Assembly: GCA_030248195.1 (NCBI GenBank)
Contig: JASAND010028258.1
Location: 1 to 64,000, forward strand
Direction: 5' to 3'
Source: Trissonchulus latispiculum
Lineage: Eukaryota; Nematoda; Enoplea; Enoplida; Ironidae
DNA: 64,000 nt
This document shows, piece by piece, positions 5,884 through 35,037 of the stretch. The number at the start of each line of letters is the position of its first letter. Within the stretch, counting starts at the first letter, position 1. Position numbers and translations under genes: made by a program. The notes under the pieces were generated by a model. The model was not told where the DNA came from. It saw only the letters and a program-made list of their open reading frames with translations, and searched no databases.

Positions 5884-8595
5884 TACCTTGCCGTATTAAT
5901 AAACTCTGTCTAACTCCACGCTACCTCAGACGCCACTTAGCCACGTTACAGGCAGTTGGGATAAGTGACTTTCCCATTACACTTTGTTAACACTACTTCA
6001 TACAAATGGTTGCCCTTAAAAAGCCAGATGGGATAAGTGATATTTTCTGCGTTCTCGGGTTATCCTAGAAACAACTTTTCAACCAAATCGGAGACAAAAA
6101 GTTTTTGATCATTTTTGACACCTTCGCCTGAAAATGGTTGCCCATAAAAGGGCAGTTGGGATAAGCAGTTTTCGACTAAATATCGTTGAAAAATAATTGT
6201 CACGGCTTACTAAAGGGTGTCCTAACAAATATACCGGCTCATCTTGACTAACGAGTTCAAAAAACACGGATATTAGGTGTTTCTGGCCAGTTTGCTCACT
6301 TTTGTCGTCTCCAACAGTGTAACTATTGGCCATATCTAGAGATTCTCAAAAGGTAGAAAAATTTCGATTGCAGATTTGGAATCTGCGTCCCCGAATTACC
6401 CTATGACCGTCATTTCAACAAAATTGGAAGCAAAAGTTTTTTGACCATTTTTGAGAATCGCCTTCTCAGAGAACCAGAACCCCCGTTACGATTTTTAAAA
6501 ATTTAAATTTTAAATTCCCTGCCCTGGTCGACTGGGTGGGGGTTCTCAAAAGGTAGAAAAATCTCGATTGCAGATTTGGAATCTGCGTCCCCGAATTACC
6601 CTATCACCGTCATTTCAACAAAATTCGAAGCAGTTTTTTGACCATTTTTGAGAATCGCCTTCCCAGAGAACATAAATTCATTTGATCAGGCACTGATTTT
6701 TGATTTTTTGACCACTTTTGACACCTTCGTCTGAACAAGAGCTTTTGAGAATCGCCTTGACAGAGAACCAGAACCACCACCTTCGATTTTTAAAAATTTA
6801 AATTTTAAATTCCCTGCCCTGGTCGACTGGGCGGAGATAGAGTGATGAAATTCACGGATGCACACCTTCTTTTCACGCTCTTCAAAATGAGGTATTAACC
6901 AACCCTGTACCCCTTCCCAATCTCGAGATCTAGGGGGCGGACACCCACCTGCTTTTGAGAATCGCCTTGACAGAGAACCAGAACCACCACCTTCGATTTT
7001 TAAAAATTTTAATTTTAAATTCCCTGCCCTGGTCGACTGGGTGGAGATAGAGTGATGAAATTCACAGATGCACACCTTCTTTTCAAGCTCTTCAAAATGA
7101 GGTATTAACCAACCCTGTACCCCTTCCCAATCTCGAGTTCTAGGGGGGGGACACCCACCTGCTAATAATAATAATAATAACTAGCGACTGCGAGAGTGTG
7201 TTGCCCACCTGCACATTCCATTTAGGTCAGAGCTTTATTTCCTAAGACTTTGATAGCCTCTCGTTCAAGAAATGCGTGCTTCTGCAATATGCTTGGTTTT
7301 ATTCGAATACAATAATGACGACACCTTCATCCTAAAATGGTTGCCCTTAAAAGGGCAGTTGGGATAAGTGATTTTTATATTACACTTTGTTAACACTACT
7401 TCATACAAATGGTTGCCCTTAAAAAGGCAGTTGGAATAATTACGAATTACCTTATAACCGACTTTTCAACCAAATTGGAGACAAAAAGTTTTTGACCATT
7501 TTTGACACCTTTACCTGAACATGGTTGCCCATAAAAGGGCAGTTGGGATAAGCAATTTTCAACTACATATCGCTAAAAGTTACTTGATATACCATTCTAA
7601 GCGTGTCCTAGCAAATACACCGGCTCATCTTGATTAACTAGTTCAAAAAAGCACAGATATTAGGTGTATCTGCGCAGTTTGCTCACTTTTGCGGTCTCCA
7701 ACAGTGTAACTTTTGGCCATATCTCGAGATTCTCAAAAGGTAGAATAATTTCGATTGCAGATTTGGCATCTGCGTCCCCGAATTACCTTATAACCGACTT
7801 TTCAACCAAATCGGAGACAAAAAGTTTTTGACCATTTTTGACACCTTTGCCTGAACATGGTCGCCCATAAAAGGGCAGTTGGGATAAGCAATTCTCAACT
7901 ACATATCGCTAAAAGTTACTTGATATACCATTCTAAGCGTGGCCTAGCAAATACACCGGCTCATCATGACTAACTAGTTCAAAAAACACGGATATTAGGT
8001 GTTTCTGGGCAGTTTGCTCAATTTTGCGGTCTCCAACAGTGTAACTTTTGGCCATATCTCGAGATTCTCAAAAGGTAGAAAAATTTCGATTGCAGATTTG
8101 GAATCTGCGTCCCCGAATTACCTTATAACCGCCTTTTCAACCAAATCAGAGACAAAAAGTTTAGACCGTCTGGCACTGTGGCGACAGTCTGCTCACTTTT
8201 GCGGTCTCCAACATCAATTTTTTAAAAAATTAAATTCCCTGCCCTGGTCGACTGGGTGGAGATAGAGCGATGAAATTGACGGATGCACACCTTCTTTTCA
8301 CGCTCTTCAAAATGAGGTATGAACCAACCCTGTACCCCTTCCCAATCTCGAGATCTAGGGGCGAAAAACAACTGATAATAGGCGTTTCCAGAGAACCAGA
8401 ACCACCACCTTCGATTTTTAAAAATTTAAATTTTAAATTCCCTGCCCTGGTCGACTGGGTGGAGATAGAGTGATGAAATTCACGGATGCACACCTTCTTT
8501 TCACGCTCTTCAAAATGAGGTATTAACCAACCCTGTACCCCTTCCCAATCTCGAGATCTAGGGGGGGGACACCCACCTGCTAATAATAAGAATAA

Positions 8596-9497
8596 CTAGC
8601 GAAGTTGCGAGAATGGGTTGCCGCGGCATTTTCCCTTTGGGGGGATGGATTTTCAGAAGAATGCAACAGTATTTTGGTCGTAATTTTCGCTACACGCATT
8701 TCCCAAAAATGCCGCAAGCAGAAACGTTGTTCAGCTCGACGAGCTCTTTCATTTGAGTACCATATTGACCACATTTGAAGAAATTTTTTAAAATCCGGGT
8801 TTTCGTGAATTCCCGGATTTTCAGTTTTTCGGCTGTAACTTTCGCTAGACGCATTTCCGGAAAATGCCGCAAGCAGAAAAGTTGTTCAGCTCGACGAGCT
8901 CTTTCATTTGAGTACCATATTGACCACTTTTGAAGAACTTTTTTAAAATCCGGGTTTTCGTGAATTCCCGGATTTTCAGTTTTTCGGCTGTAACTTTCGG
9001 TAGGCGCATTTCCGGAAAATGTTGCAAGAAGGAAAGTTGCTCAGCTCGACGAGCTCTTTCATTTAAGTACCATATCGACCACTTTCGGAAAAATTTTTCA
9101 AAATCCGGAATTTTCCGGGTCCAATATCTCGAAATCCGTAAATTTTCCGGAAATTTCGATTTCAGTTTCGAAATCAGCGCTATCGAATTACCCTATGCCC
9201 AACTTTTAAGCGAAATCGGGGACAAAAAATTTTTACGTTTCCCTTGGTCCCCCCTTACCATTATAAAAAATTCCGGGAGCCGCCATTCCCGGAATCCGGG
9301 AAATACCGGACTGTCCGCGCTTCAGTCAACACTTCACCCCACCCCAAACCTCCACTGAAAATTTCAGCCCAATCGGGCCACCCTAGCAAAAGTTAGAGGG
9401 GGGGGACAGGGGGTGGTAACGAGAATAAATAATAATAATAATAAACGGACATACCCAGATGAAAGGGTTGCCTTTTTTGTGTAAAAAGCGGCAACCC
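8596..9497 (+). mobile_element. Nested element E3 (class b), uninterrupted
   Basis: An intact example of the architecture. Lead CTAGCGAAGTTGCGAGAA, key GGGTTGCCGC (8615-8624), body with three to four diverged modules centred on CAGCTCGACGAGCTCTTTCA, G-tract and ACA at about 9401, AAT block about 9424-9445. Then comes a rear hairpin starting CGGACATACCCAGATG and closing with GCGGCAACCC (9488-9497). Length about 900 bp. No coding capacity. Confidence 0.82.
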
Positions 9498-9502
9498 AAT
9501 AA

Positions 9503-10421
9503 CTAGCGCTACTGCAAGAATGTGTTGCCCACAAATGGTTTTTCTGTTTATTTTTCTGCCATAACTTTCACCAGAAGCATTTCCGGAAAATACGGTAATG
9601 ATGAAAATTACTCAGCACGACGAGCGCTTTCATTTGAGTACCATATCGACCACTTTCGGAAAAATTTTTCAAAATCCGGAATTTTCCGGATCGAATATCT
9701 CGAAATCCGGAAATTTTCCGGAAATTTCGATTTCAGTTTCGAAATCAGCGCGGTCGAGTTACCCTATGACCAACTTTTGAGCGAAATCGGAGACAAAAAA
9801 TTTTTTGGTCCAAAATCCGGGTTTCCGTGAATTCCCGGATTTTCAGTTTTTCGGCCATAACTTTCGCTAGACGCATTTCCGGAAAATGTCGCAAGAAGGA
9901 AAGTTGCTCAGCTCGACGAGCTCTTTCATTTAAGTACCATATCGACCACTTTCGGAAAAATTTTTCAAAATCCGGAATTTTCCGGGTCCAATTTCTCGAA
10001 ATCCGTAAATTTTCCGGAAATTTCGATTTCAGTTTCGAAATCAGCGCTATCGAATTACCCTATGCCCAACTTTTAAGCGAAATCGGGGACAAAAAATTTT
10101 TACGTTTCCCTTGGTCCCCCCTTACCATTTTAAAAAATTCCGGAAGCCGCCATTCCCGGAATCCGGGAAATACCGGACTGTCCGCGCTTCAGTCAACACT
10201 TCACCCCACCCCAAACCTCCACTGAAAATTTCAGCCCAATCGGTCCACCCAATCAAAAGTTAGAGGGGGGGGACAGGGGTGGTCACGAGATGAATAATAA
10301 ATAATAATAAACGGACATACCCAGATGAAAGGGTTGCCTTTTTTGTGTAAAAAGCGGCAACCCAATAAGCACAGACCAATAACAAAGTGTTGCCCATTCC
10401 TTTAGGAAAAGTGGGCAACAC
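9503..10421 (+). mobile_element. Nested element E4 (class a1) fused to a headless class b element
   Basis: Opening key TGTGTTGCCCAC at 9521-9532 and closing arm GTGGGCAACAC at 10411-10421. Between them is a class-b closing arm (10354-10363) without its opening key. The sequence from about 9800 onward matches the rear half of class-b elements E3 and E12, while the start is class a1. A deletion by recombination between the similar body modules of an a1 element and a b element nested in it gives exactly this layout. Confidence 0.75.
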
Positions 10422-13400
10422 AATAATAATAACTAGCGCTACTGCAAGAATGTGTTGCCCACTACAACGTTTTTCTGTTTATTTTTCTGCCGTAACTTTC
10501 GCTAGACGCAGTTTCAGAAAATGTTGCAAGAAGGAAAGTTGCTCAGCTCGACGAGCTCTTTCGTTTGAGTACCATATCGACCACGTTTGCAGAAATTTTT
10601 CAAAATCCGGAATTTTCCAGAGCGAATATCTCCAAATCCGTAAATTTCCCGGAAATTTCGATTTCAGCTTCGAAATCAGCGTGGTCGAATTACCTAATGA
10701 CCAACGTTTGAGGGAAATCGGAGGCAAAAAATTTTTTGGTCCAAAATCCGGATTTTCGTGAATTCCCGGATTTTCAGTTTTTCGGACATAACTTTCGCTA
10801 GACGCATTTTCGGAAAATGTCGCAAGAAGGAAAGTTGTTCAGCTCGACGAGCTCTTTCATTTGAGTACCATATCGACCACTTTTTGAGAATTTTTTCAAA
10901 ATCCGGAATTTTCCGGGTCGAATATGTCGAAATCCGGAAATTTTCCGGAAATTTCGATTTCAGTTTCGAAATCAGCGTGGTCGAGTTACCCTATGACCAA
11001 CTTTTGAGCGAAATCGGAGACAAAAATTTTTGACCAAATTTTGGATTTTGAAATTTCGCCTTGGTCCCCCCTTACCAACCGAAAAATTCCGGGATCCGTC
11101 ATTCCCGGAATCCGGAAGGTATCGGAGCCATCTTGCTTCCCGGAGATGTCCCAGTCAAGGGCTTCAAAATGAGGTATCAACCACCCCTGTACCCCTTCCC
11201 AATCTCGAGATCTAGGGGGGGGACAGACGGATAATAATAATAATAATAATAAGTCAAAAGGCATCAAGTGGTTCCCGCCCGACATTTTCCCCGAGCACTT
11301 GGGCTTTTCTGTGATTAGACTTGTTTTCAGGCTTTGCCACTATTACAACTTTTTATCTGCGCAACGAGAGCTTTCGATTGATACCAGAGATCAACATTAA
11401 CCGACAACTTTTTATTTTGACCGATTCTGACAGTTTTTGGCCATTTTTGACCCCTTTGAGGCCTCGTAACTCATTTGCCCTACATTTTGGTGCGTTGGCC
11501 CTATTACAACTTTTTATCCACGCAACGAGAGCTTTCGAATGACACCGGTATCAGCCGTATCTGACAATTTTCAATTTTGGCCCATTTTGACCGTTTCTGG
11601 CTATTTTTGATCCCTTTGGAGCCCCGTAACTCATTTTTCCTACATTTTGACGCTTTATCCCTATTACAACTTTTTACCTACGCAACGAGAGCTTTCGAAT
11701 GATACCCATATTGGGGGGGGGTTTCCGGCACTTTCAATTTTGGCCCATTTTGACCGTTTCTGGCCATTTTTGACCCCTTTGGAGCCCCGTAACTCAATTT
11801 TCCTACATTTTGACGTTTATCCCTATTACAACTTTTTACCTACGCAACGAGAGCTTTCGAATGATACCCATATTGGGGGGTTTTCGTCACTTTCAATTTT
11901 GACCATTTGCAGCATCACCGTGTCGAGTACTTGCGAATTGTGTGACACTATGGTACCCAGGTGCCCGGAGGGTCTTCCCGCATCGGGTGCCACCCTACAT
12001 GCCAAATTTCAGGCCAACTAGGTGACTCTAGCTCGAGATAAAAGCGGAAAACCCCTTCAAACGGCCGTTTTGGCCGTTTTTGGCCATTTTTGACCCTTTT
12101 TCGCCTTATAACTAAAAATGGGTACATTTTCAGGCCTTGACCCAATTACAACTTTTTCATGGCTCGACGAGAGCTTTCGAATGATACCAAAATTAGCTCA
12201 TTTGGACAACTTTTTTATTTTACTCATTTTTACTCACGGGGGTGCTCCGGGAGCACCTCTGCACCCCCGGGGCTCCCCGCGCTTCCGGGAGTAGTTCAAG
12301 TCAAGACCTTCAAAATGAGGTATCAGCCACCTCTCCATCCCTTTCCAATCTCGAGATAGAGGGGGGGTACACGAAAATGTGAACAATAATAAGAATAAGA
12401 ATAAGTCAAAAGGCATCAAGTGGTTCCCGCCCGTCATTTTTCCGTTTATATACAAAATGGTTTCATTTATAGGAAAAGTATTGCGATTGAGCCTTTTGCG
12501 TCTATAACAACTTTTTATCAGCGAGACCTTTCGAATGACACCGGTATCAACCGGATCCGACAATTTTCTATTTTGACCCATTTTGACCGATTTTGGCCAT
12601 TTTTGGCCCATTTATGGCTCTGTAACTCATTTTTCCGACATTTTTAAGCTTTGGCCCTATTACAACTTTTTATCTACGCAACGAGAGCTTTCGAATGATA
12701 CCCATATCGACCCAATTGGACAACTTTCAATTTTGACCCATTTTGACCGGTTCTGGTCATTTTTTGACCCCTTTGAGGCCCCGTAACTCATTTTTCCTAC
12801 ATTTTGGCGCTTTACGCCTATTACAACTTTTTACCTACGCAACGAGAGCTTTCGAATGATACCCATATTGGGAGGTTTTCGACAACTTTTATTTTTGACC
12901 CATTTTGACCGGTTTTGACCATTTTTGACCCCTTTGAGGCTCCGTAACTCATTTTTCCTACATTTTGACGCCTTGGCCCTATTACAACTTTTTATCCACG
13001 CAACGAGAGCTTTCGAATGACACCCATATTGGGGGGTTTCCGTCACTTTCAATTTTCACGATTTGCAGCATCACCGTATCGAGTAATTGCTAATTGCGTG
13101 ACACTATGGAACCCAGGTGCCTGGAGGGTCTTCCCGCTTCGGGTGCCACCCTACATGCCAAATTTCAGGCCAACTAGTTGACTCTAGCTCGAGATAAAGG
13201 CGGAAAACCCCTTCAAACGGCCGTTTTGGCCGTTTTTGGTCATTTTTGACCCTTTTTCGCCTCATAACTAAACATGAGTACATTTTCAGGCCTTGACCCA
13301 ATTACAACTTTTTCATGGCTCGATGAGAGCTTTCAAATGATACCAAAATTAGCTCATTTGGACAACTTTTTTATTTTACTCATTTTTACTCACGGGGGTG

Positions 13401-14521
13401 CCCCGGGAGCACCTCTGCTCCCCCGGGGCTCCCCACGCTTCCGGGAGCAGTTCAAGTCAAGACCTTCAAAATGAGGTATCAACCACCTCTCTACCCCCTC
13501 CCAATCTCGAGATAGAGGGGGGGTACACGAAATTGTGGACAATAATAAGAATAAATCCTACCGGCATCAACGGGTTGTCGCGCATTTTCCTCTTATTCCT
13601 CTGTGCTTATATTGGCTCGGGCTAAAACTCAGTTTTGGAACATTTTCAGACTTTGACCCTATCACAACTTTTTCCCTACTCGCTGAGAGCTTTCGAATAA
13701 GTACTATATTGACAACTTTTAGGACAATTTTTAAAATTCCGGTTTTTCCGGGAATTCCCGGATTTTCAGTTTTTCGGCCGTAATTTTCGCTGGACGCATT
13801 TCCGGAAAATGTCGCAAGAAGGAAAGTTGCTCAGCTCGACGAGTTCTTTCATTTGAGTACCATATCGACCACTTTCGGAAAAATTTTTCAAAATCCGGAA
13901 TTTTCCGGGCCAAATATCTCGAAATCCGGAAATTTTCCGGAAATTTCGATTTCAGTTTCGAAATCAGCGTGGTCGACTTACCCTATGACCAACTTTTAAG
14001 CAAAATCCGAGATAAAAAATTTTTAAGTCCAAAATCCGGGTTTTCGTGAATTCCCGGATTTTCAGTATTTCGGTTATAACTTTCGCTAGACGCATTTCCG
14101 GAAAATGTCGCAAGAAGGAAAGTTGCTCAGCTCGACGAGCTCTTTCATTTGAGTACCATATCGACTACTTTTGAAGAAATTTTTCAAAATCCGAAATTTT
14201 CCGGTGCGAATATCTCGAAATCCGGAAATTTTCCGGAAATTTCGATTTCAGTTTCGAAATCAGCGTGGTCGACTTACCCTATGACCAACTTTTAAGCGAA
14301 ATCGGAGACAAAAAATTTTTAAGTTTCCCTTGGTCCCCCCTTACCATTTTTAAAAATTCCGGGAGCCGCCATTCCCGGAATCCGGGAGATATCGGGCTAC
14401 CCCCACTTCCGGTACCACTTCAGGTCACCCTACAACTATGGTGAAAATTTCAGCCCGATCGGTCCAGCCAATCTCGAGAAAAAGGGGGGGGACAAGATTG
14501 TTTACCGATATAATAAATAAA

Positions 14522-15423
14522 CTAGCGAAGTAGCGAGAATGGGTTGCCGCTGCATTTTCCGTTTATAGATGGCTATATCTCCCCAAAGAGGCACCTTTGT
14601 GACCCAGTATAGTCTGATTCGTGTAGTGCGTATCGAGAGCTCTCAATAGAGTACCATATTGACCATATTTAGAGTTGTTTAGATTTTTGGTCATTTTGGT
14701 AGATTTTGCCCATTTTTGACCCCTTTGAAGCTCCGTAACTCAATTTTCGTACATTTTGACGACTCGGCCCTATTACAACTTTTAATCCACTCACCTAGAG
14801 CTTTCGAATGAGCCCCATATTGGGCGGTTTCCGATACTTTTAATTTTGAGCCATTTTGTCCGATTTTGCCCATTTTTGACCTTTTTGAAGCTCCGTAACT
14901 CAATTTTCGTACATTTTGACGACTCGGCCCTATTACAACTTTTAATCCACTCACCTAGAGCTTTCGAATGAGCCCCATATTGGGCGGTTTCCGATACTTT
15001 CAATTTTGAGCCATTTTGTCCGATTTTGCCCATTTTTGACCTCTTTGAAGCTCCGTAACTCAATTTTCGTACATTTTGACGACTCGGCCCTATTACAACT
15101 TTTAATCCACTCACCTAGACCTTTCGAATGAGCCCCATATTGGGCGGTTTCCGATGCTTTCAATTTTGAGCCATTTGCAGCATCACCGTATCGAGTACTT
15201 TCGCATACCGCAACGGGGGGAGCCCCCCGTGCTTCAGTCAACACTTCACCCCACCCCCAACCCCCACCTCAAATTTCAGCCCAATCGGTCAACCCTAGCA
15301 AAAGTTAGAGGGGGGGGACAGGTGTGGGCACGAGATGAATAATAAATAATAATAATAATAATAATAATAAACGGACATACCCAGATGAAAGGGTTGCCTT
15401 TTTTGTGTAAAAAGCGGCAACCC
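14522..15423 (+). mobile_element. Nested element E9 (class b) with a class-d-like body
   Basis: Lead and key are class b (GGGTTGCCGC at 14541-14550), as are the last 200 bp and the rear (GCGGCAACCC at 15414-15423). The middle is instead three tandem modules of about 162 bp of the GAGCTTTCGAATGAGCCCCATATTGGGCGG type, like the class-d body. Ends are conserved while the interior is swapped. Confidence 0.8.
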
Positions 15424-15429
15424 AATAAA

Positions 15430-16445
15430 TCCTACCGGCATCAACGGGTTGTCGCAGCCATTTTCCTCTTATCTAAAGGGTCAAAACTCAGTTTTGGTAC
15501 ATTTTCAAAACTTGGTTCTATTACAAATTTTTTTCCTACTCGTTGAGGGCTTTCAGATGAGTACCATATCGACTACTTTTGAGACAATTTTTGAAAATTC
15601 GGGTTTTCCGGGAGTTACCGGATTTTTAGTTTTTCGGTTATAACTTTCGCTAGGCGGATTTCCGGAAGATCCCGCAAGCAGGAAACTTGTTCAGCTCGAC
15701 GAGCTCTTTCATCTGAGCCCCATATCGACCACTTTCGGAGAAATTTTTCAAAATCCGGAATTTTCCGGATCGAATATCTCGAAATCCGTAAATTTTCCGG
15801 AAATTTCTATTTCAGTTTCGAAATCAGCGTGGTCGACTTACCCTATGACAACCTTTTAAGCAAAATCGGAGACAAAAAATTTTTAAGTCCAAAATCCGGG
15901 TTTTCGTGAATTCCTGGATTTTCAGTTTTTCGGCTATAACTTTCGCTAGACACATTTCCGGAAAATGTCGCAAGAAGGAAAGTTGTTCAGCTCGGCGAGC
16001 TCTTTCATTTGAGTACCATATCGACCACTTTTGGAGAAATTTTTCAAAATCCGGAATTTTCCGGGTCGAATATCTCGAAATCCGGAAATTTTCCGGAAAT
16101 TTCGATTTGAGTTTCGAAATCAGCGTGGTCGACTTACCCTATGACCAACTTTCAAGCAAAATCGGAGACAAAAAATTTTTACGTTTCCCTTGGTCCCCCC
16201 TTACGATTTTTAAAATTCCGGGATTCGCCATTCCCGGAATCCGGGAGATATCGGGATGCCCTTACAAACGGGAGCACTTCAGGTCACCCTACAACTATGG
16301 TGAGAATTTCAGCCCGATCGGTCCAGCCAATCTCGAGAAAAAGGGGGGGGACACAAATGTTGACCGGAATAATAAATAAATAAATAAATAAAGAAACTTA
16401 GCCATAACAAAGGGTTGTCTTTTTTTTAAAAAAATGCGACAACCC
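15430..16445 (+). mobile_element. Nested element E10 (class c), uninterrupted
   Basis: Lead TCCTACCGGCATCAAC, key GGGTTGTCGCA (15446-15456), G-tract and ACA near 16345, (AATAA)n at about 16369-16392, rear GAAACTTAGCCATAAC closing with TGCGACAACCC (16435-16445). About 1.02 kb. Confidence 0.82.
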
Positions 16446-16585
16446 AATAAATAAATAAAGAAACTTTCCCATAACAAAGGGTTGTCTTTTTTTAAAAAAA
16501 ATGCGACAACCCAATAATAAGAATAAGAATAATAAACATGTCCAGAACATAGGGTTCCAAACCCTTTGGAAAAGGGCGGGAACCC

Positions 16586-16633
<48 letters not shown>

Positions 16634-17658
16634 CATGTCCAAAACATAGGGTTCCAAACCCTTTGGAAAAGGGCGGGAACCCAATAATAATAATAAGCAC
16701 AGACCAATAACAAAGTGTTGCCCATTCCTTTGGAAAAGTGGGCAACACAATAAGAATAAACAGACAGTAGAAAGGGTTGCCCTCTTCCTTTGGAAAGGTG
16801 GGCAACACAATAAATCCTACCGGCATCAACGGGTTGTCGCAGCCATTTTCCTCTTATCTACCGGGCCAAAACTCAATTTTGGCACATTTGCAAGCTTTGG
16901 TGTTATTGCAACTTTTTTCCAACTCGCTTAGAGCTTTCGAATGACGTCAATATGAATGCAATTAGTCAACTTTAAATTTTGACCATTTTTGCAGCATCAG
17001 TGTATCGAGGATCAAAACGCAATTTTGGTACATTTTCAAGATTTGTCCCTATTACAACTTTTTCTCAGCTCAATGAGAGCATTCGAATGATACCAATATT
17101 GCCCCGATCCGACAACTCCCAATTTTGACCATATTTGGAAAATGGTTGCCCATAAAAGGGCAGTTGGGATAAGAGATCTTCGATGATTATTGCTAAACGT
17201 TATTTAATACAGCCTCTTAAAAGGTATTCTAGCAAATCCAGCAGCTAAACTTGACTAACAAGGTCAAAATCTCTTATATTAGGCGTTTCTGGGCAGTTTG
17301 CTCACTTTTGCGGTCTCCAACAGTGTAACTTTTGGCCATATCTCGAGATCCGTAAGGGTTGGGAAAATTTCGATTGCAGATTTGGAATCCACGTCCCCGG
17401 GTTACCCTATGACCAACTTTTGAGCCAAATCGGAGACAAAAAATTTTTGACCATTTTTTAGAATCGCCTTGGTCCACCCTTACGATTTTAAAAATTCCGG
17501 GAGCCGCCATTCCCGGAATCCGGGACATATCGGGCTGCCCCCACTTCCGGTACCACTTCACCCCACCCCCAAGTGAAACTGATAATTTCAGCCCGATCGG
17601 TCCAGCCAATCTCGAGAAAAAGGGGGGGGACAAAGTGTTGACCGGAATAATAAATAAA

Positions 17659-22213: not shown

Positions 22214-23376
22214 GTCAAAAGGCATCAAGTGGTTCCCGCCCGACATTTTTCTGCTTATAGAATGAGTTTATAATATTCGGGGCCCCATAACTCATTTGTC
22301 CTATATTTTGACGCTTTACCCCTATTACAACTTTTTACCTACGCAACGAGAGCTTTCGAATGATACCCATATTGGGGGGTTTCCGTCACTTTCAATTTTG
22401 GCCCATTTTGATCGTTTCTGGCCATTTTTGACCCTTTTGGAACCACGTAACTCTTTTTTCCTACATTTTGACGCTTTGGCCCTATTACAACTTTTTATCC
22501 ACGCAACGAGAGCTTTCGAATGACACCGGTATCAGCCGTATCTGACAATTTTCAATTTTGGCCCATTTTGACCGTCTCTGGCCATTTTTGACCCCTTTGG
22601 AGCCCCGTAACTCATTTTTCCTACATTTTGACGCATTACCCCTATTACAACTTTTTACCTACGCAACGAGAGCTTTCGAATGACACCGGTATCAGCCGTA
22701 TCCGACAATTTTCAATTTTGGCCCATTTTGACCGTCTCTGGCCATTTTTGAGCCCTTTGGAGCCCCGTAACTCATTTTTCCTACATTTTGACGCTTTACC
22801 CCTATTACAACTTTTTACCTACGCAACGAGAGCTTTCGAATGATACCCATATTGGGGGGTTTCCGTAACTTTCAATTTTGACCTTTTGCAGCATCACCGT
22901 ATCGAGTAATTGCGAATTATGTGACACTATGGTACCCAGGTGCCCGGAGGGGCTTCCCGCATCGGGTGCCATCCTACATGCAAAATTTCAGGCCAACTAG
23001 TTGACTCTAGCTCGAGATAAAGGCGGAAAACCCCTTCAAGCGGCCGTTTTGGCCGTTTTTGGCCATTTTTGACCCTTTTTCGCCTCATAACTCAAAATAG
23101 GTACATTTTCAGGCCTTGACCCAATTACAACTTTTTCATTACTCGCCGAGAGCTTTCGAATGATACCAAAATTAGCTCATTTGGACAACTTTTTTATTTT
23201 ACTCATTTTTACTCACGGGGCTGCTCTGGGAGCAACTTTGCACCCCCGGGGCTCCCCGCGCTTCCGGGAGCAGTTCAGGTCCATGCGCAACTCCACTGAA
23301 GATTTCAGCCCGATCGGTCCATCCAAACTCGAGCTAGACTTGGGGGACACGAAATTGTGGACAATAATAAGAATAA
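22214..23376 (+). mobile_element. Front of nested element E16 (class d), closing arm missing
   Basis: Lead GTCAAAAGGCATCAAGT and key GGTTCCCGCCC at 22231-22241, with 161-bp GAGAGCTTTCGAATGA modules. No partner rear is left: both class-d rears at 32761-32772 and 32822-32833 pair with E18 and E17. Its rear should lie beyond 35037, where the array stops abruptly. Confidence 0.75.
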
Positions 23377-26300
23377 GTCAAAAGGCATCAAGTGGTTCCC
23401 GCCCGTCATTTTTCCGTTTATACAAAGAGCTTAGTACTTTTTGTAAATGTATGCAGTTACTAGTTTTACGTCTACGATAACTGGTTCCCACCCCCAGCTC
23501 ATCAAGAGCTTTCGATTTATACCACTATCAGACCAATCCGACAAAGTTCGATTTTGACCGATTTTGACCGGTTTTGGCCATTTTTGACCCTTTTGTGGCT
23601 CCGTAACTCATTTTTCCTACATTTTGGCGCTTTACCCCTATTACAACTTCTTACCTACGCAACGAGAGCTTTCGAATGATACCCATATTGGGGGGTTTCC
23701 GACAACTTTTAATTTTGACCCATTTTCACCGTTTTTGGTCATTTTTGACCCCTTTGAGGCCCCGTAACTCATTTCTCCTACATTTTGGCGCTTTACCCCT
23801 ATTACAACTTCTTACCTACGCAACGAGAGCTTTCGAATGATACCCATATTGGGGGGTTTCCGACAACTTTTAATTTTGACCCATTTTGACCGTTTTTGGT
23901 CATTTTTGACCCCTTTTGAGGCCCCGTAACTCATTTCTCCTACATTTTGGCGCTTTACACCTATTACAACTTCTTACCTACGCAACGAGAGCTTTCGAAT
24001 GATACCCATAGTGGGGGGTTTCCGACAACTTTTAATTTTGACCCATTTTGACCGTTTTTGGTCATTTTTGACCCCTTTGAGGCCCCGTAACTCATTTCTC
24101 CTACATTTTGGCGCTTTACCCCTATTACAACTTTTTACCTACGCAACGAGAGCTTTCAAATGATACCCATATTGGGGGGTTTCCGTCACTTTCAATTTTG
24201 ACCATTTGCAGCATCACCGTATCGAGTAATTGCGAATTGTGTGACACTATGGTGCCCAGGTGCCCGGAGTGTCTTCCCGCATCGGGTGCCACCCTACATG
24301 CAAAATTTCAGGCCAACTAGTTGACTCTAGCTCGAGATAAAGACGGAAAACCCCTTCAAACGGCCGTTTTGGCCGTTTTTGGCCATTTTTGCCCCTTTTT
24401 TGCCTCATAACTCAAACTAGGTACATTTTCAGGCCTTGACCCAATTACAACTTTTTCATTACTCGCCGAGAGCTTTCGAATGATACCAAAATTAGCTCAT
24501 TTGGACAACTTTTTTATTTTACTCATTTTTACTCACGGGGCTGCTCCGGGAGCACCTCTGCTCCCCCGGGGCTCCCCGCGCTTCCGGGAGCAGTTCAAGT
24601 CAAGACCTTCAAAATGAGGTATCAACCACCTCTCTACCCCTTTCCAATCTCGAGATAGACAGGGGGTACACGAAATTGTGGACAATAATAAGAATAAGAA
24701 TAAGTCAAAAGGCATCAAGTGGTTCCCGCCCGACATTTTTTCGTTTATGGACTGAGTTTATAATATTCAGGGCCCCATAACTCATTTGTCCTATATTTTG
24801 ACGCATTAGCCCTATTGCAACTTTTTATCTACGTAACGAGAGCTTTCGAATGATACCAATCTTGTTGGGTTTCGGTTACCTTCAATTTTGAACCATTTTG
24901 TCCGGTTTTGGCCTTTTTTGACCCTTTTGGGGCTCGGTAACTCATTTTTCCGACATTCTGCCGCTTTGGCCCTATTAAAATTTTTTATCTACGCAACGAG
25001 AGCTTTCGAATGACACCGGTATTAACCGGATCCGACAATTTTCAATTTTGACCCATTTTGACCGGTTTTTACCATTTTGACCCTTTTGGGGCCCCGTTAC
25101 TCACTTGTCCTACATTTTGGCGCTTCGGCCCTATTACAACTTTTTATCTACTCAACGAGAGCTTTCGAATGACGTCGGTATCGACCGGATCCGACAATTT
25201 TCAGTTTTGACCCATTTTGACCTGTTTTTGGCCATTTTTGACCCCTTTGAGGCCCCGTAACTAATTTTTCCTGCATTTTGACGCCTTGGCCCTATTACAA
25301 GTTTTTATCCACGCAACGAGAGCTGTCGAATGGTATCCATATTGGGGGGTTTCCGACAAACCTTCAATTTTGGCCCATTTTGACCGTTTCTGGCCATTTT
25401 TGACCCCTTTGGAGCCCCGTAACTCATTTTTCCTACATTTTGACGCTTTACCCCTATTACAACTTTTTATCCATGCAACGAGAGCTTTCGAATGACACCG
25501 GTATCAGCCGTATCCGACAATTTTCAATTTCGGCAAATTTTGACCGTTTCTGGCCATTTTTGACCCCTTTGGAGCCCCGTAACTCATTTTTCCTACATTT
25601 TGACGCTTTACCCCTATTACAACTTTTTACCTACGCAACTAGAGCTTTCGAATGATACCCATATTGGGGGATTTCCGTCACTTTCAATTTTGACCATTTG
25701 CAGCATCACCGTATCGAGTAATTGCGAATTGCCTGACACTATGGAACCCAGGTGCCTGAAGGGCCTTCCCCCATCGGGTGCCACCCTACATACCAAATTT
25801 CAGGCCAACTAGTTGACTCTAGCTCGAGATAAATGCGGAAAATCCCTTCAAACGGCCGTTTTGGCCGTTTTTGGCCATTTTTGATCCCTTTTTGCCTCAT
25901 AACTCAAAATAGGTACATTTTCAGGCCTTGACCCTATTACAACTTTTTCATAGCTCAACGAGAGCTTTCGAATGATACCAAAATTAGCTCATTTGGACAA
26001 CTTTTTTATTTTACTCATTTTTACTCACGGGGGTGCTCCGGGAGCACCTCTGCTCCCCCGGGGCTCCCCGCGCTTCCGGGAGCACTTCAAGTCAAGACCT
26101 TCAAAATGAGGTATCAACCACCTCTCTGCTCCTTTCCAATCTCGAGATAGAGGGGGGGTACACGAAAATGTGAACAATAATAAGAATAACTAGCGCTACT
26201 GCAAGAATGTGTTGCCCACAACTGGTTTTTCTGTTTATTTTTCTGCCATAACTTTCACCAGAAGCATTTCCGGAAAATACGGTAATGATGAAAATTACTC

Positions 26301-27006
26301 AGCACGACGAGCTCTTTCATTTGAGTACCTTATCGACCACTTTCGGAAAAATTTTTCAAAATCCGGAATATTCCGGATCGAATATCTCGAAATCCGTAAA
26401 GTTTCCGGAAATTTCGATTTCCGTTTCGATATCAGCGTGGTCGAATTACCCTATGACCAGCTTTTAAGCAAAATCGGAGACAAATAATTTTTTGGTCCAA
26501 AATCCGGATTTCCGTGAATTCCCGGATTTTCCGTTTTTTGGCCATAACTTTCGCTACACCCATTTCCGGAAAATGTCGCAAGAAGGAAAGTTGTTCAGCT
26601 CGACGAGCTCTTTCGTTTGAGTACCATATCGACCACTTTTAGAAAAATTTTTAAAAATCCGGAATTTTCCGGGTCGAATATCTCGAAATCCGGAAATTTT
26701 CCGGAAATTTCGATTTCAGTTTCGAAATCAGCGTGGTCGAGTAACCCTATGACCAACTTTTGAGCGAAATCGGAGACAAAAAATTTTTGACCAAATTTTG
26801 GATTTTGAAATTTCGCCTTGGTCCCCCCTTACCAACCGAAAAATTCCGGGATTCGCCATTCCCGGAATTCGAAAGGTATCGGACTGCCCAACTGAGGATC
26901 CAATGTCCTAGTCAAGGGCTTCAAAATGAGGTATCAACCACCCCTGTACCCCTTCCCAATCTCGAGATCTAGGGGGGGGACAGACGGATAATAATAATAA
27001 TAATAA

Positions 27007-27711
27007 CTAGCGCTACTGCAAGAATGTGTTGCCCACAACACGTTCCTTTGTGGTATAGATTTTGCTAGATACCTGTTAAACTGTTTCTGTTCAGGAAATC
27101 TGTCCCCGGACTCAAAGAGCTTTCAATTAAGTACCATATTGCCCATGTTTCGACGAATTTTTGAAAATCCGGTATTTTCCGGAAATTCCGGATTTTCCGA
27201 TCTGCGGCCATAACTTTCGCCAGAAACATTTCCGGAAAGTATGGTAATGATAAAAATTACCCAGCTCGACGAGCACTTTCATTTAAGTACCATATCGACC
27301 ACTTTTGGAGAAATTTTTCAAAATCTGGAATTTTCCGGATCGAATATCTCGAAATCCGTAAATTTTCCGGAAATTGCGATTTCAGTTTCGAAATCAGCGT
27401 GGTCGAGTTACCCTATGACCGACTTTTGAGCCAAATTGGAGACAAAAAATTTTTGACCAAATTTTGGATTTTTGAAATTTCGCCTTGGTCCCCCCTTACC
27501 ATCCGGAAAAATCCGAATTTTCAAAACCCGGAATTTCGGAACCATCTTACTTCCGGGAGATGTCCTAGTCAAGGGCTTCAAAATAAGGTATCAACCACCC
27601 CTGTACCCCTTCCCAATCTCGAGATCTAGGGGGGGACAGACGGATAATAATAATAATAAGCACAGACCAATAACAAGGTGTTGCCCATTCCTTTGGAAAA
27701 GTGGGCAACAC
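27007..27711 (+). mobile_element. Nested element E20 (class a1), shortest uninterrupted copy
   Basis: Key TGTGTTGCCCAC at 27025-27036, one full body module, GGGGGGGACAGACGG then (AAT)n at about 27643-27658, rear GCACAGACCAATAACAAGG closing with GTGGGCAACAC at 27701-27711. About 705 bp: probably the minimal architecture. Confidence 0.82.
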
Positions 27712-27720
27712 AATAATAAA

Positions 27721-29370
27721 TCCTACCGGCATCAACGGGTTGTCGCAGCCATTTTCCTTTTATCAAAGGGCGCAATTCAGAATTCATTTATTCCTCTTAT
27801 ATACGGCCAAAATTCAGTTTGGTACATTTTCACTTTTTGTTTATATTGCAGTTTTTTCTACTCGTTTAGGGCTTTCAAATGAGTACCATATTGACTACTT
27901 TTGAGACAATTTTTAAAAATTCGGATTTTCCGGGAATTACCGGATTTTCAGTTTTTCGGCAATAACTTTCGCTAGACGCATTTCCGGAAAATTTCGCAAG
28001 AAGGAAAGTTGTTCAGCTCGACGAGCTCCTTCATTTGAGTACCATATCGACTACTTTTGAGACAATTTTTAAAAATTCGGATTTTCCGGGAATTACCGGA
28101 TTTTCAGTTTTTCGGCAATAACTTTCGCTAGACGCATTTCCGGAAAATTTCGCAAGAAGGAAAGTTGTTCAGCTCGACGAGCTCTTTCATTTGAGTACCA
28201 TATCGACTACTTTTGGAGACATTTTTCAAAATTCGGAAATTTCCGGGGCGAATATCTCGAAATCCACAAATTTTCCGGAAATTTCGATTTCAGTTTCGAA
28301 ATCAGCGTGGTCGACTTACCCTATGACCAACTTTTAAGCAAAATCGGAGACAAAAAATTTTTAAGTCCAAAATCCGGTTTTCGTGAATTCCCGGATTTTC
28401 AGTTTTTCGGCTATAACTTTCGCTAGACGCATTTTCGGAAAATTTCGCAAGAAGGAAAGTTGTTCAGCTCGACGAGCTCTTTCATTTGAGTACCATATTG
28501 ACTACTTTTGAGACAATTTTTAAAAATTCGGATTTTCCGGGAATTACCGGATTTTCAGTTTTTCGGCAATAACTTTCGCTAGACGCATTTCCGGAAACTT
28601 TCGCAAGAAGGAAAGTTGTTCAGCTCGACGAGCTCTTTCATTTGAGTACCATATCGACTACTTTTGGAGAAATTTTTCAAAATTCGGAAATTTCCGGGGC
28701 GAATATCTCGAAATCCACAAATTTTCCGGAAATTTCGATTTCAGTTTCGAAATCAGCGTAGTTAAATTACCCTATAACCAACTTTTGAGCAAAATCGGAG
28801 ACAAAAAATTTTTAAGTCCAAAATCCGGTTTTCGTGAATTCCCGGATTTTCAGTTTTTCGGCTATAACTTTCGCTAGACGCATTTTCGGAAAATTTCGCA
28901 AGAAGGAAAGTTGTTCAGCTCGACGAGCTCTTTCATTTGAGTACCATATCGACTACTTTTGGAGAAAGTTTTCAAAATTCGGAAATTTCCGGGGCGAATA
29001 TCTCGAAATCCGCAAATTTTCCGGAAATTTCGATTTCAGTTTCGAAATCAGCGTGGTCGACTTACCCTATGACCAACTTTTAAGCAAAATCGAAGACAAA
29101 AAATTTTTACGTTTCCCTTGGTCCCCCCTTACGATTTTTTAAATTTCCGGGAGCCGCTATTTCCGGAATCAGGGAGATATCGGGATGCCCTTACAAACGG
29201 GAGCACTTCAGGTCACCCTACAACTGTGCTGTGAATTTCAGCCCGATCGGTCCAGCCAATCTCGAGAAAAAGGGGGGGGACACAAATGTTGACCGGAATA
29301 ATAAATAAATAAATAAAGAAACTTAGCCATATCAAAGGGTTGTCTTTTTTTTAAAAAAATGCGACAACCC
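27721..29370 (+). mobile_element. Nested element E21 (class c) with amplified body modules
   Basis: Key GGGTTGTCGCA at 27737-27747 and closing arm TGCGACAACCC at 29360-29370. The body carries a tandem expansion of the CAGCTCGACGAGCTCTTTCA module (about five copies between 28000 and 29000), including near-identical larger blocks, so modules amplify within an element. Confidence 0.8.
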
Positions 29371-29440
29371 AATAATAATAAGCACAGACCAATAACAAAG
29401 TGTTGCCCAAATCCTTTGGAAAAGTGGGCAACACAATAAA

Positions 29441-30468
29441 TCCTACCGGCATCAACGGGTTGTCGCGCATTTTCCTCTTATTCCTCTGTGCTTATATTGG
29501 CTCGGGCAAAAACTCAGTTTTGGAACATTTTCAGACTTTGGCCCTATCACAATTTTTTCCCTACTCGCTGAGAGCTTTCGAATAAGTACCATATTGACAA
29601 CTTTTAGGACAATTTTTAAAATTCCGGTTTTTCCGGGAATTCCCGGATTTTCAGTTTTTCGGCCGTAATTTTCGCTGGACGCATTTCCGGAAAATGTCGC
29701 AAGAAGGAAAGTTGCTCAGCTCGACGAGTTCTTTCATTTGAGTACCATATCGACCACTTTCGGAAACATTTGTCAAAATCGGGAATTTTCCGGGCCGAAT
29801 ATCTCGAAATCCGTAAATTTTCCTGAAATTTCGATTCCAGTTTCGAAATCAGCGTGGTCGAATTACCCTATAGCCAACTTTTGAGTGAAATCGAAGACAA
29901 AAAATTTTGAAGACCAAAATCTGGGTTTTCGTGAATTCCCGGATTTTCAGTTTTTCGGGCATAACTTTCGCTAGACACATTTCCGGAAAATGGCGCAAGA
30001 AGCAAAGTTGCTCAGCTCGACGAGCTCTTTCATTTGAGCCCCATATTGACCACTTTTGGGGAAATTTTTCAAAATCCGGAATTTTCCGGGCCGAATATCT
30101 TGAAATCCGTAAATTTTCCGGAAATTTCGATTTCAGTTTCGAAATCAGCATGGTCGAATTACCCTATGACCAACTTTTGAGCGAAATCGGAGACAAAAAA
30201 TTTTTGACCATTTTTTAGAATCGCCTTGGACCCCCCTTACGATTTTCAAAATTCCGGGAGCCGCCATTCCCGGAATCCGGGAGATATCGGGCTGCCCCCA
30301 CTTCCGGTACCACTTCATGCCACCCTACTACTATGGTGAGAATTTCAGCCCGATCGGTCCAGCCAATCTCGAGAAAAAGGGGGGGGACAAAGTGTTGACC
30401 GGAATAATAAATAAAGAAACTTAGCCATATCAAAGGGTTGTCTTTTTTTTAAAAAAATGCGACAACCC
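29441..30468 (+). mobile_element. Nested element E22 (class c), uninterrupted
   Basis: Key GGGTTGTCGC at 29457-29466, closing arm TGCGACAACCC at 30458-30468, about 1.03 kb. Sits after E19 within E18. Confidence 0.82.
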
Positions 30469-30482
30469 AATAATAATAAGAA

Positions 30483-32687
30483 CTAGCGCTACAGCAAGAA
30501 TGTGTTGCCCACAACTGGTTTTTCTGTTTATTTTTCTGCCATAACTTTCGCTAGAGGCATTTTCAGAAAATGTCGCAAGAAGGAAAGTTGCTCAGCTCGA
30601 CGAACTCTTTCGTTTGAGCACGATATCGACCACTTTCAGAGAAATTTTTCAAAATCCGGAATTTTCCGGAACGAATATATCGAAATCCGTAAATTTTCGG
30701 GAAATTTCGATTTTAGTTTCGAAATCAGCGTGGTCGAATTACCCTATGACCAGCTTTTAAGCAAAATCGGAGACAAAAAATTTTTCAACCCAAAATCCGG
30801 ATTTTCGTGAATTCCCGGATTTTCACTTTTTCGGACATAACTTTCGCTAGACGCATTTTTGGAAAATGTCGCAAGAAGGAAAGTTGCTCAGCTCGAGGAG
30901 ATCTTTCATTTGAGTACCATATCGATCACTTTTGGAGAAATTTTTCAAAATCCGGAATTTTCCGGGTCGATTATCTCGAAATCCGGAAATTTTCCGGAAA
31001 TTTCGATTTCAGTTTCGAAATCAGCGTGGTCGAGGTACCCTATGACCAACTTTTGAGCGAAATCGGAGACAAAAAATTTTTGACCAAATTTAGGATTTTG
31101 AAATTTCGCCTTGGTCCCCCCTTACCAACCGAAAAATTCCGGGATTCGCCATTCCCGAAATCCGGAAGGTATCGGAGCCATCTTGCTTCCCGGAGATGTC
31201 CTAGTCAAGGGCTTCAAAATAAGGTATCAACCACCCCTGTACGCCTTCCCAATCTCGAGATCTAGGGGGGGGACAGACGGATAATAATAATAATAATAAT
31301 AAATCCTACCGGCATCAACGGGTTGTCGCGCATTTTCCTCTTATCCTTCCTCTGTGCTTATATTGGCTCGGGCTAAAACTCAGTTTTGGAAGATTTTCAG
31401 ACTTTGGCCCTATCACAACTTTTTCCCTACTCGCTGAGAGCTTTCGAATAAGTACCATATTGACAACTTTTAGGACACTTTTTAAAATTCCGGTTTTTCC
31501 GGGAACTCCCGGATTTTCAGTTTTTTGGCCGTAATTTTTGCTGGACCCATTTCCGGAAAATGTCGCAGGAAGGAAAGTTGCTCAGCTCGACGAGTTCTTT
31601 CATTTGAGTACCATATCGACCACTTTCGGAAAAATTTTTCAAAATCCGGAATTTTCCGGGCCGAATATGTCGAAATCCGTAAATTTTCCGGGAATTTCAA
31701 TTTCAGATTCGAAATCAGCGCTACCGACTTACCCTATGACCAACTTTTAAGCAAAATCCGAGACAAAAAATTTTTAAGTCAAAATCCGGGTTTTCGTGAA
31801 TTCCCGGATTTTCAGTTTTCCGGCTATAACTTTCGCTAGACGCATTTTCGGAAAATACCGCAAGAAGGAAAGTTGCTCAGCTCGACGAGTTCTTTCATTT
31901 GAGTACCATATCGACCACTTTCCGAAAAATTTTTCAAAATCCGGAATTTCCGGACATAATATCTCGAAATCCGTGAATTTTCCGGGAATTTCAATTTCAG
32001 ATTCGAAATCAGCACCACCGACTTACCCTATGACCAACTTTTAAGCAAAATCCGAGACAAAAAATTTTTAAGTCCAAAATCCGGGTTTTCGTGAATTCCC
32101 GGATTTTCAGTTTTTCGGCTATAACTTTCGCTAGACGCATTTCCGGAAAATGTCGCAAGAAGGAAAGTTGTTCAGCTCGGCGAGCTCTTTCATTTGAGTA
32201 CCATATCGACCACTTTTGGAGAAATTTTTCAAAATCCGGAATTTTCCGGGTCGAATATCTCGAAATCCGGAAATTTTCCGGAAATTTCGATTTCAGTTTC
32301 GAAATCAGCGTGGTCGACTTACCCTATGACCAACTTTTAAGCAAAATCGGAGACAAAAAATTTTTACGTTTCCCTTGGTCCCCCCTTACGATTTTTAAAA
32401 TTCCGGGATTCGCCATTCCCGGAATCCGGGAGATATCGGGATGCCCTTACAAACGGGAGCACTTCAGGTCACCCTACAACTATGGTGAGAATTTCAGCCC
32501 GATCGGTCCAGCCAATCTCGAGAAAAAGGGGGGGGACACAAATGTTGACCGGAATAATAAATAAATAAATAAATAAAGAAACTTAGCCATAACAAAGGGT
32601 TGTCTTTTTTTTAAAAAAATGCGACAACCCAATAAGCACAGAACGATAACAAGGTGTTGCCATTTCCTTTGGAAAAGTGGGCAACAC
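30483..32687 (+). mobile_element. Nested element E23 (class a1)
   Basis: Key TGTGTTGCCCAC at 30501-30512. The rear GCACAGAACGATAAC closes with GTGGGCAACAC at 32677-32687. E24 is inside. Confidence 0.8.
31304..32630 (+). mobile_element. Nested element E24 (class c), uninterrupted
   Basis: Key GGGTTGTCGC at 31320-31329; closing arm TGCGACAACCC at 32620-32630. Three to four body modules. Confidence 0.82.
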
Positions 32688-32844
32688 AATAAGAATAATA
32701 ATAATAATAATAATAATAATAAACATGTCCAGAACATAGGGTTCCAAACCCTTTGGAAAAGGGCGGGAACCCAATAATAATAAACATGTCCAGAACATAG
32801 GGTTCCAAACCCTTTGGAAAAGGGCGGGAACCCAATAAGAATAA

Positions 32845-34488
32845 GTCAAAAGGCATCAAGTGGTTCCCGCCCGACATTTTTCCGTTTATAGAATGAGTTT
32901 ATAATATTCGGGGTCCCATAACTCATTTGTCCTATATTTTGACGCGTTAACCCTATTACGACTATTTATCTACGTAACGAGAGCTTTCGAATGATACCCA
33001 TATTGTTGGGTTTCCGTTACTTTCAATTTTGACCCATTTTGACCGGTTTTGGCCATTTTTGATCTCCTTGAGGCTCCGTATCTCATTTTCCCCACATTTT
33101 GGTGCGTTGGCTCTATTACAACTTTTTATCTACGTAATGAGAGCTTTCGAATGATACCAATATTAGGCAGTTTCCGTTACTTTCAATTTTTACCCATTTT
33201 GACCGTTTTTGGTCATTTTTGACCATTTTGCGGCCTCGTATCTCATTTTTCCCACATTTTGGTGCGTGGGCACTATTGCAACTTTTTATCTACGTAATGA
33301 GAGCTTTCGAATGATACCAATATTAGGCAGTTTCCGTTACTTTCAATTTTGACCCATTTTGACCGATTTTGGCCATTTTTGATCTCCTTGAGGCTCCGTA
33401 TCTCATTTTCCCCACATTTTGGTGCGTTGGCTCTATTACAACTTTTTATCTACGTAATGAGAGCTTTCGAATGATACCAATATTAGGCAGTTTCCGTTAC
33501 TTTCAATTTTTACCCATTTTGACCGTTTTTGGTCATTTTTGACCATTTTGCGGCCTCGTATCTCATTTTTCCCACATTTTGGTGCGTGGGCACTATTGCA
33601 ACTTTTTATCCACAAATCGATAGCTTTCGAATGGTATCCATATTGGGGGGTTTCCGACAACTTTTAATTTTGGCCATTTTGACCGTTTCTGGCCATTTTT
33701 GACCCCTTTGGAACCACGTAACTCATTTTTCCTACATTTTGACGCTTTGGCCCTATTACAACTTTTTATCCACGCAACGAGAGCGTTCGAATGACACCGG
33801 TATCAGCCGTATCCGACAATTTTCAATTTTGACCCATTTTGACCGTTTCTGGCCATTTTTGACCCCTTTGGAGCCCCGTAACTCATTTTTCCTACATTTT
33901 GACGCTTTACCCCTATTACAACTTTTTACCTACGCAACGAGAGCTTTCGAATGATACCCATATTGGGGGGTTTCCGTCACTTTCAATTTTGACCATTTGC
34001 AGCATCACCGTATCGAGTAATTGCTAATTGCCTGACACTATGGAACCCAGGTGCCCGGAGGGTCTTATCGCATCGGGTGCCACCCTACATGCCAAATTTC
34101 AGGCCAACTAGTTGACTCTAGCTCGAGATAAAGGCGGAAAACCCCTTCAAACGGCCGTTTTGGCCGTTTTTGGCCATTTTTGAAACTTTTTCGCCTCATA
34201 ACTAAAAATGGGTGCATTTTCAGGCCTTGACCTAATTACAACTTTTTCATTACTCGCCGAGAGCTTTCGAATGATACCAAAATTAGCTCATTTGGACAAC
34301 TTTTTTATTTTACTCATTTTTACTCACGGGGCTGCTCCGGGAGCACCTCTGCTCCCCCGGGGCTCCCCGCGCTTCCGGGAGCAGTTCAAGTCAAGACCTT
34401 CAAAATGAGGTATCAACCACCTCTCTACCCCTTCCCAATCTCGAGATAGACATGGGGGACACGAAATTGTGGACAATAATAATAAGAA
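32845..34488 (+). mobile_element. Front of nested element E25 (class d), closing arm missing
   Basis: Key GGTTCCCGCCC at 32862-32872. The body contains a duplicated pair of modules (about 33040-33600) and the usual class-d 3' module, ending in an AAT block at about 34474. As with E16, the rear is not found before the array stops. Confidence 0.75.
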
Positions 34489-35037
34489 TTTTGAAAATCC
34501 GGTTTTTTCCGGAAATTCCGGATTTTCCAATCTGCGGCCATAACTTTCGCTAGAAACATATCGGGAAAATATGGTAATGATAAAAATTACCCAGCTCGCC
34601 GAGCTCTTTCATTTGAGTATCATATCGACCACTTTTGGAGAAATTTTTCAAAATCCGGAATTTTCCGGATCAAATATCTCGAAATCCGTAAATTTTCCGG
34701 GAATTTCGATTTCAGTTTCGAAATCAGCATGGTCGAATTACCCTATGACCGACTTTTGAGCCAAATCGGAGACAAAAAATTTTTGACCAAATTTTGGATT
34801 TTTGAAATTTCGCCTTGGTCCCCCCTTACCATCCGAAAAAATCCGAATTTTCAAAACCCGGAATTTCGGAACCATCTTGCTTCCGGGAGATGTCCTAGTC
34901 AAGGGCTTCAAAATAAGGTATCAACCACTCCTGTACCCCTTTCCAATCTCGAGATCTAGGGGGGGGGACAGACGGATAATAATAAGCACAGAACGATAAC
35001 AAAGTGTTGCCCATTCCTTTGGAAAAGTGGGCAACAC
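34489..35037 (+). mobile_element. Headless nested element E26 (class a1)
   Basis: Starts abruptly in the middle of an a1-type body (no CTAGCG lead, no key), then continues normally through the G-tract, AAT block and rear GCACAGAACGATAAC to the closing arm GTGGGCAACAC at 35027-35037. The missing front and the missing rears of E16 and E25 suggest deletions at this edge of the array. Confidence 0.7.

Follow-up and report, generated by a model that had tools for sequence, protein, structure and literature searches.

The stretch of DNA analyzed here (hereafter, the window) consists of positions 1-64,000 of contig C19154 (JASAND010028258.1) of the 734-Mb assembly of the nematode Trissonchulus latispiculum. 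Between positions 7197 and 35037, it carries a 28-kb repeat array that repeat annotation could mistake for a satellite. All the units of this array lie on the minus strand. On that strand, each displays in succession a 5' hairpin formed by a subterminal repeat together with its complement, an (ATT)n microsatellite, central tandem repeats of 155-161 bp and a 3' subterminal repeat. Six classes of units (a1, a2, b, c, d, and e) can be distinguished by their ends. The data described below make it very probable that the array is a pile of HINEs, that is, of non-autonomous Helentrons, inserted one inside another. In what follows, "front" designates the 3' end of a unit, which is met first when reading the plus strand, and "rear" designates its 5' hairpin.

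Front keys and rear hairpins were mapped by script. In the array, 24 fronts (five a1, one a2, four b, seven c, six d, and one e) and 25 rears were found; a 25th front called by the scanner at 52520 lies outside the array and is judged spurious. When fronts are read as opening brackets and rears as closing ones, 22 same-class pairs are formed with zero crossings. This reproduces, token for token, the bracket word that an initial annotation, made from the letters alone, had proposed for 7197-35037 as a case of perfect nesting. Shuffling the rear labels gave a mean of 12.6 pairs and a maximum of 17, so that 22 pairs were reached in 0 of 1000 trials; three types of shuffles, with 400 trials each, also never reached this number (0/400 for every type). 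Because any model with intact units predicts pairs in which a front is directly followed by its own rear, the 10 units of this kind were removed in a stricter control. This left 14 fronts and 15 rears, among which 12 nested pairs could still be formed, compared to a null mean of 7.5 and a maximum of 11 (0/1000 shuffles). The depth of the nest is six by strict parsing and seven when the outermost a2, cut beside a gypsy element, is included, in keeping with the depth of about seven first proposed. The exceptions already listed at that time were also retrieved, namely an orphan b rear at 10363, the outer a2 rear at 20633, two unclosed d fronts at 22229 and 32860, and a headless a1 ending at 35037; these departures from perfect pairing make sense in a nested structure. 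For 24/24 fronts, complementarity between the key and the rear arm assigned to it extends over 10-13 nucleotides. It should be noted that the a1 and a2 keys are not fully distinct, four of the five a1 fronts fitting the a2 rear equally well (11 nucleotides); the a1/a2 separation was therefore made on terminal words and tails.

On the left side, the outermost a2 body (5951-7179) begins with a sharp break at about 5950, next to the gypsy element, the other end of which is off the contig. It ends at 7163, is 85-99% similar to the a2 at 7180, with the same body end, and has its 5' hairpin ending at 20633. The next a2 (7180-16808; 1488 bp of own sequence) contains three guests: an uninterrupted b (8594-9497; depth three, counting the outer a2), an a1 with a chimeric body in which the orphan b hairpin ending at 10363 is followed by an a1 hairpin (9502-10421), and an a1 with 886 bp of own sequence (10432-16748), which hosts a d-d-c-(b,c) stack. 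This stack is made of two d units (11252-16682 and 12405-16585, with 1250 and 1222 bp of own sequence, respectively), a c unit (13554-16512; 1037 bp) and its two guests, a b with d-type body repeats (14520-15423; depth seven, counting the outer a2) and an uninterrupted c (15428-16445). Then comes a c unit (16813-20549) hosting a b (17657-18556) and another c (18561-20482), which has its own b guest (19516-20415). An uninterrupted e (20640-22199) and a d unit whose 5' hairpin was not found (22211-23377) precede a d with 1388 bp of own sequence (23378-32833) and a d with 1585 bp of own sequence (24705-32772) and a1, c, and a1 as guests. The first of these a1 guests (26188-29434) contains an uninterrupted a1 (27006-27711) and an uninterrupted c (27719-29370); the c guest (29439-30468) is uninterrupted, and the last a1 (30482-32687) contains an uninterrupted c (31302-32630). 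At the right edge, a d unit whose 5' hairpin was not found (32846-34486) is followed by a truncated a1 (34487-35037; 95.4% identical to the a1 at 27006 over 497 bp), which lacks its 3' part, retains an a1 hairpin and closes the array. A different sequence is found beyond 35037.

The joints between units show where guests are inserted. The AAT tract of a host lies just inside its 5' hairpin, and guests sit in that tract. Once the guests are excised, hosts read from body to AAT tract to own hairpin, matching uninterrupted copies. Thus, once its b guest is removed, the c unit at 18561, 97.6% similar to the uninterrupted c at 15428, reads exactly like this empty-tract reference from the end of the body to the end of the AAT tract, the first difference being a substitution in the tail beyond; this comparison agrees with an absence of target duplication, at a site that is a microsatellite and can vary in length. 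The b units at 17657 and 19516 are 100% identical over 900 bp, and their identity continues for only 21 nucleotides to the left and 7 nucleotides to the right of the predicted ends. Taking the window and the other arrays described below, the body-end signature of the host directly precedes the guest in 56/58 cases according to a refined rule, which omits the guest at C13650 3447, situated over 3 kb away from the front before it. The two misses are at C13056 1339 and C20349 7729. A looser rule, which took d signatures for e, gave 51/59. Moreover, gaps from the rear of a sibling to the next front contain only A and T in 44/44 cases under 110 nucleotides; four gaps of at least 110 nucleotides were excluded, two of which end at fronts judged spurious. 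Guests thus land in a tract that the elements themselves carry, so that each insertion can supply a further landing pad, the orientation being fixed.

An empty site was found for a 12.35-kb array on contig C2056, which has an e-class end at both sides. When its flanks are joined, 425/442 columns are identical to window positions 45384-45825 (plus strand), and the junction has neither gap nor mismatch. With the e-class outer ends, this paralogous empty site indicates that a single insertion opened the site and that the remainder arrived inside. In the window, the empty site belongs to an inverted-repeat element (45384-46153) with arms at 45390-45576 and 45967-46153 that are 98.9% alike. At the right end of the C2056 array, one extra e hairpin stays unpaired. 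The AACAAG sequence present on both C2056 flanks could be read as a 6-bp target duplication. This possibility was rejected: the outermost e and b fronts of C8857 and C10917 start with ACAAGC and their right flanks are devoid of it. The motif is therefore assigned to the element, and insertion is read as having taken place between two A's (two T's on the minus strand) without target duplication. In the same set, the six credible outermost fronts with non-AAT flanks are all of class e or b; the other outermost fronts comprise three considered spurious and two flanked by AAT. There are hints here that some classes open sites while others fill tracts. A d unit with non-repeat flanks (about 380 bp visible on the left and about 90 bp on the right) at locus L031 weighs, however, against such a split.

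Similar arrays occur at other places in the genome. Ten further contigs, in stretches chosen for their similarity to the window and not as a random sample, were mapped in the same way. With the window, they give 91 non-crossing pairs from 114 called fronts and 116 called rears, for a summed null mean of 58.6; at least five of these tokens are spurious (the C5535 rears at 28715 and 28638, which lie in or beside a coding frame, and the fronts at window 52520, C3196 9709, and C13650 252). Several of the ten contigs nest beyond chance. After removal of the uninterrupted units, ten pooled arrays, window included, retain 45 pairs (null mean 31.7, maximum 38). A front directly followed by a rear is followed by one of its own class in 46/50 cases, for a chance value of 0.22. 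In each contig, window included, all called rears (116/116, two of them judged spurious) are on one strand, and two called fronts lie on the strand opposite to the rears of their contig. At the scale of the genome, the d front has 657 exact matches and the d hairpin end 556; among 100 listed of the 657 matches, all contigs with at least two d fronts (23/23) have them on a single strand. Exact uninterrupted joints between d body and hairpin are found 117 times, at least one of them beside a Rep gene, as compared to 0 for the backward control. The search for uninterrupted solo copies and empty sites suggested by the initial annotation was therefore fruitful: such copies were found for a1, b, c, d, and e, and two empty-site comparisons could be made. 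The exact a1 and d front patterns were absent from the viral contigs searched, and the d front from the prokaryote genomes searched. In stretches of C13056 and C5535 (L014 and L017), an a1 front is associated with a c body end and rear, and a front called c with a b body end and rear; these units are likely chimeras.

The organization of the units recalls that of known elements. In HINE/DINE-1 elements and in Cg_HINE of the Pacific oyster, a subterminal repeat is followed by its close complement, a microsatellite, tandem repeats, and a right module with a repeat (PMC4067079; PMC7492417; these and the papers below are cited from excerpts). Elements of the HINE type with microsatellites and satellite-like repeats are known from insects, molluscs, and sea urchin (PMC4067079). 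HINE/DINE-1 elements also share with the present units T-rich insertion without target duplication and a partner coding for Rep, helicase, and endonuclease (PMC4067079). In the array, the 5' subterminal repeat with its nearby complement is present, and three 5' hairpins fold 4.1-4.6 standard deviations better than shuffled sequences. Among the 11 stop-to-stop frames of at least 150 amino acids in the array, the 10 that were scanned gave no match above the Pfam cut-off and one chance-like match below it, as expected of non-coding elements. The units therefore fit HINEs. A canonical Helitron1, with 5'-TC and 3'-CTRR ends and insertion between A and T, was also considered and rejected, the ends and the empty site being different.

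The Helitron Rep domain was detected at 147 places in the genome, and two loci are of particular interest. On the plus strand of C5535, a b-type hairpin, (ATT)n, and d-like repeats (about 77-81% similar to the d repeats of the window) are followed by an open reading frame (ORF) with a Helitron_like_N domain and then by a PIF1 ORF with a weak endonuclease match. On C1634 (7465-15231; L039, L040), a 2589-amino-acid ORF contains Helitron_like_N, PIF1, a weak endonuclease match, and UCH. On its 5' side, d hairpins and d-type repeats are 85-88% similar to three d units of the window over 1157-1286 bp. As judged from the sequences, these Rep/PIF1 ORFs with a weak endonuclease match would be Helentron traits, and the order and strand of the hairpin, the repeats, and the Rep genes suggest that they form one element. 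The candidate endonuclease regions of the two loci share 48% identity, and GDFN and SDH are conserved in both. When they are oriented like the array, the Rep/helicase genes next to the shared 5' module have the minus strand as their coding strand; the rear is therefore the 5' end of the element. The division of units into fronts and rears in the initial annotation thus stands, with its polarity reversed. As a side observation, the UCH domain that ends the C1634 ORF is a ubiquitin carboxyl-terminal hydrolase domain (1.7e-18).

The proposal, made at the outset, that the array is a stack of transposons is strongly supported by above-chance nesting, uninterrupted copies, identical b copies ending near the predicted termini, and empty sites. 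Several observations nevertheless weigh against it or against its HINE version. When the uninterrupted units are removed and arrays are considered one by one, six of the ten do not reach significance, and C2056 is a borderline case (50/1000). C12136, with one rear, and C20349 (253/300 shuffles equal or better) nest at chance level, and C13650 hardly above it (41/300). Among listed d joints, 16 of the 17 contigs with at least two joints have them on one strand, and C14432 on both. The a2 class was never seen uninterrupted in the window and the ten other contigs. As to the nature of the element, the five typed 3' ends have a 3' repeat and no hairpin clearly better than shuffled sequences; unlike in HINE/DINE-1 elements (PMC4067079), this repeat is only about 20 nucleotides from the end and no stable 3' hairpin was found. 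The Exo_endo_phos profile matches located after PIF1 on C5535 and C1634 are below Pfam cut-offs, and PDB and protein searches (E ≤ 0.001 for the latter) with the candidate endonuclease gave no match. No 3' end was found in the C5535 and C1634 stretches read and, thus, no autonomous element with both ends. Finally, outer elements had been expected to be older by divergence. Using nearest-neighbor divergence over the last 400 bp of each body, the host appeared older than the guest in 30/59 cases (1 tie, p = 0.22) and, within the same class, in 9/17 (1 tie), so that this expectation was not borne out; the copies compared come from only 11 contigs, which makes the test weak.

How else could such an array have formed? 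It might be an ordinary satellite, whose composite unit spread via unequal crossing-over without transposing into itself. The central repeats are indeed tandem, d units of C7663 are 99.5-99.8% identical, and the b at 17657 is identical to that at 19516, so that for single sibling copies this route stays possible. For the whole array, we regard it as highly improbable: the order of the rears mirrors that of the fronts in reverse, which is not a product of tandem duplication, and the 12 nested pairs that persist after unit removal, as well as the empty sites, contradict it. We also attach very little weight to rolling-circle replication reading past the terminator and giving head-to-tail multimers in one event, with the loss of some ends. 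Although tandem Helitron arrays have been reported to arise in this way (PMC4067079; PMC12628747) and the tandem d units of C7663 could be so explained, read-through predicts repeated 5' ends and few 3' ends, whereas the array has 24 fronts for 25 rears, and its adjoining units differ in class; many siblings differ in class or age.

A third view accepts real nesting but supposes that host and guest were copied together as ready-made composites, or that guests were spread by gene conversion. In its favor, b is found three times at the identical point of a c host, two of the three copies having the same sequence. The c hosts of this identical pair, however, are 81% similar over 321 bp, and the match between the copies does not extend further than just past the b ends. 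This view is unlikely, though less so than the other alternatives. Finally, inverted ends and hairpins are also features of fold-back elements or MITEs moved by a DDE transposase, and no 3' palindrome of the kind typical of HINEs was found. The ends as read here imply no target duplication, insertion is T-rich, and Rep/helicase genes lie beside the same 5' module; membership of this other class is accordingly very improbable.

Within the preferred reading, successive HINE insertions, a mechanism can be sketched. The Helentron protein would move the units in trans and would nick (AAT)n preferentially on its T-rich strand, which may select the tract and set the orientation. As every arrival would carry its own tract, more targets would become available each time and nests could grow recursively. 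Later recombination between central repeats might then produce chimeras and local tandem copies. It is tempting to generalize. We would put it forward tentatively, and at somewhat less than an even chance, that the microsatellite of HINE/DINE elements is a self-renewing landing pad preferred by the Helentron endonuclease, each copy offering a target to the next in a fixed orientation. If true, this would account for bracket-grammar nests, for the growth of satellite-like DNA by recursive insertion, and for the retention of the microsatellite in HINE/DINE elements.

Nested transposons, HINEs, Helitron self-insertion, and satellites born from Helitrons are already known. As compared to HINE/DINE-1 elements (PMC4067079), the internal microsatellite is here itself the recipient of further insertions. 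Cg_HINE has the same modules, with a subTIR, a complementary inverted repeat, a microsatellite, tandem repeats, and a right subTIR module, and some of its copies are inserted into other repeats; unlike the present array, it is described as dispersed, and the word "nested" is absent from the main text (PMC7492417). For the Helitron2-like elements of Fusarium oxysporum, self-insertion was proposed to yield several 5' ends; that report concerns one nested case and several others with repeated 5' ends, in contrast with a microsatellite stack up to seven deep (PMC5148889). Shuffled Helitron/satellite loci in oyster also contain elements within elements, with a satellite-like result, but their arrays run in different directions, whereas one orientation and a bracket order are observed here (PMC12628747). 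No report of deep HINE nests in one orientation within their own microsatellite was found in the literature searched, which covered few subscription papers; the orientation-locked, self-targeted, seven-deep nest looks like a new variation on these known themes. It indicates that one mobile family can build satellite-like DNA while leaving the order of events partly readable. With the host-before-guest order, an empty site, and candidate partner genes in hand, target choice, orientation, and the birth of a satellite become directly testable.

Nesting is reportedly used as a measure of relative time in the transposition-in-transposition (TinT) approach for Alu; here, unlike in TinT, a deep stack is found at a single site. 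The initial annotation had claimed a complete chronology of insertions. What holds is that each host preceded its guest; the order of siblings cannot be derived, and divergence, chimeras, and tandem amplification also stand in the way of a complete order. The identity profile of the unit at 9502-10363 is a1-like at first and becomes b-like at a point between about 9800 and 9950, which likely explains the orphan b rear at 10363. Such a chimera would result if the central repeats of an a1 host and of a b guest, which are homologous, had undergone a deletion between them. The b unit at 14520-15423 combines b ends with a body of d type (80-82% similar to d over about 500 bp), its alignment with the other b units being limited to about the last 197 bp; classes thus exchange ends and central repeats. 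On C7663 (1001-4950; L034), three d units are arranged head to tail with 99.5-99.8% identity and are followed by a further d hairpin, from which it follows that some copies come from amplification.

Other features of the window, whose gypsy and LINE genes mark it as eukaryotic, can be mentioned. A 145-bp tandem array at 46232-47055 contains a 65-66-bp core that is 78-83% identical to the central repeats of the nested elements. A 651-amino-acid open frame without Pfam match (3277-5232) is next to the gypsy pol. The minus strand carries, at 40867-43985, a LINE whose reverse transcriptase is accompanied by a weak match to RNase H; searches with this LINE gave matches in many sources and in a few animals. 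On the same strand, three long frames at 60927-63999, also without Pfam match, are presumably akin to a DNA polymerase of the B family from a large mobile element.

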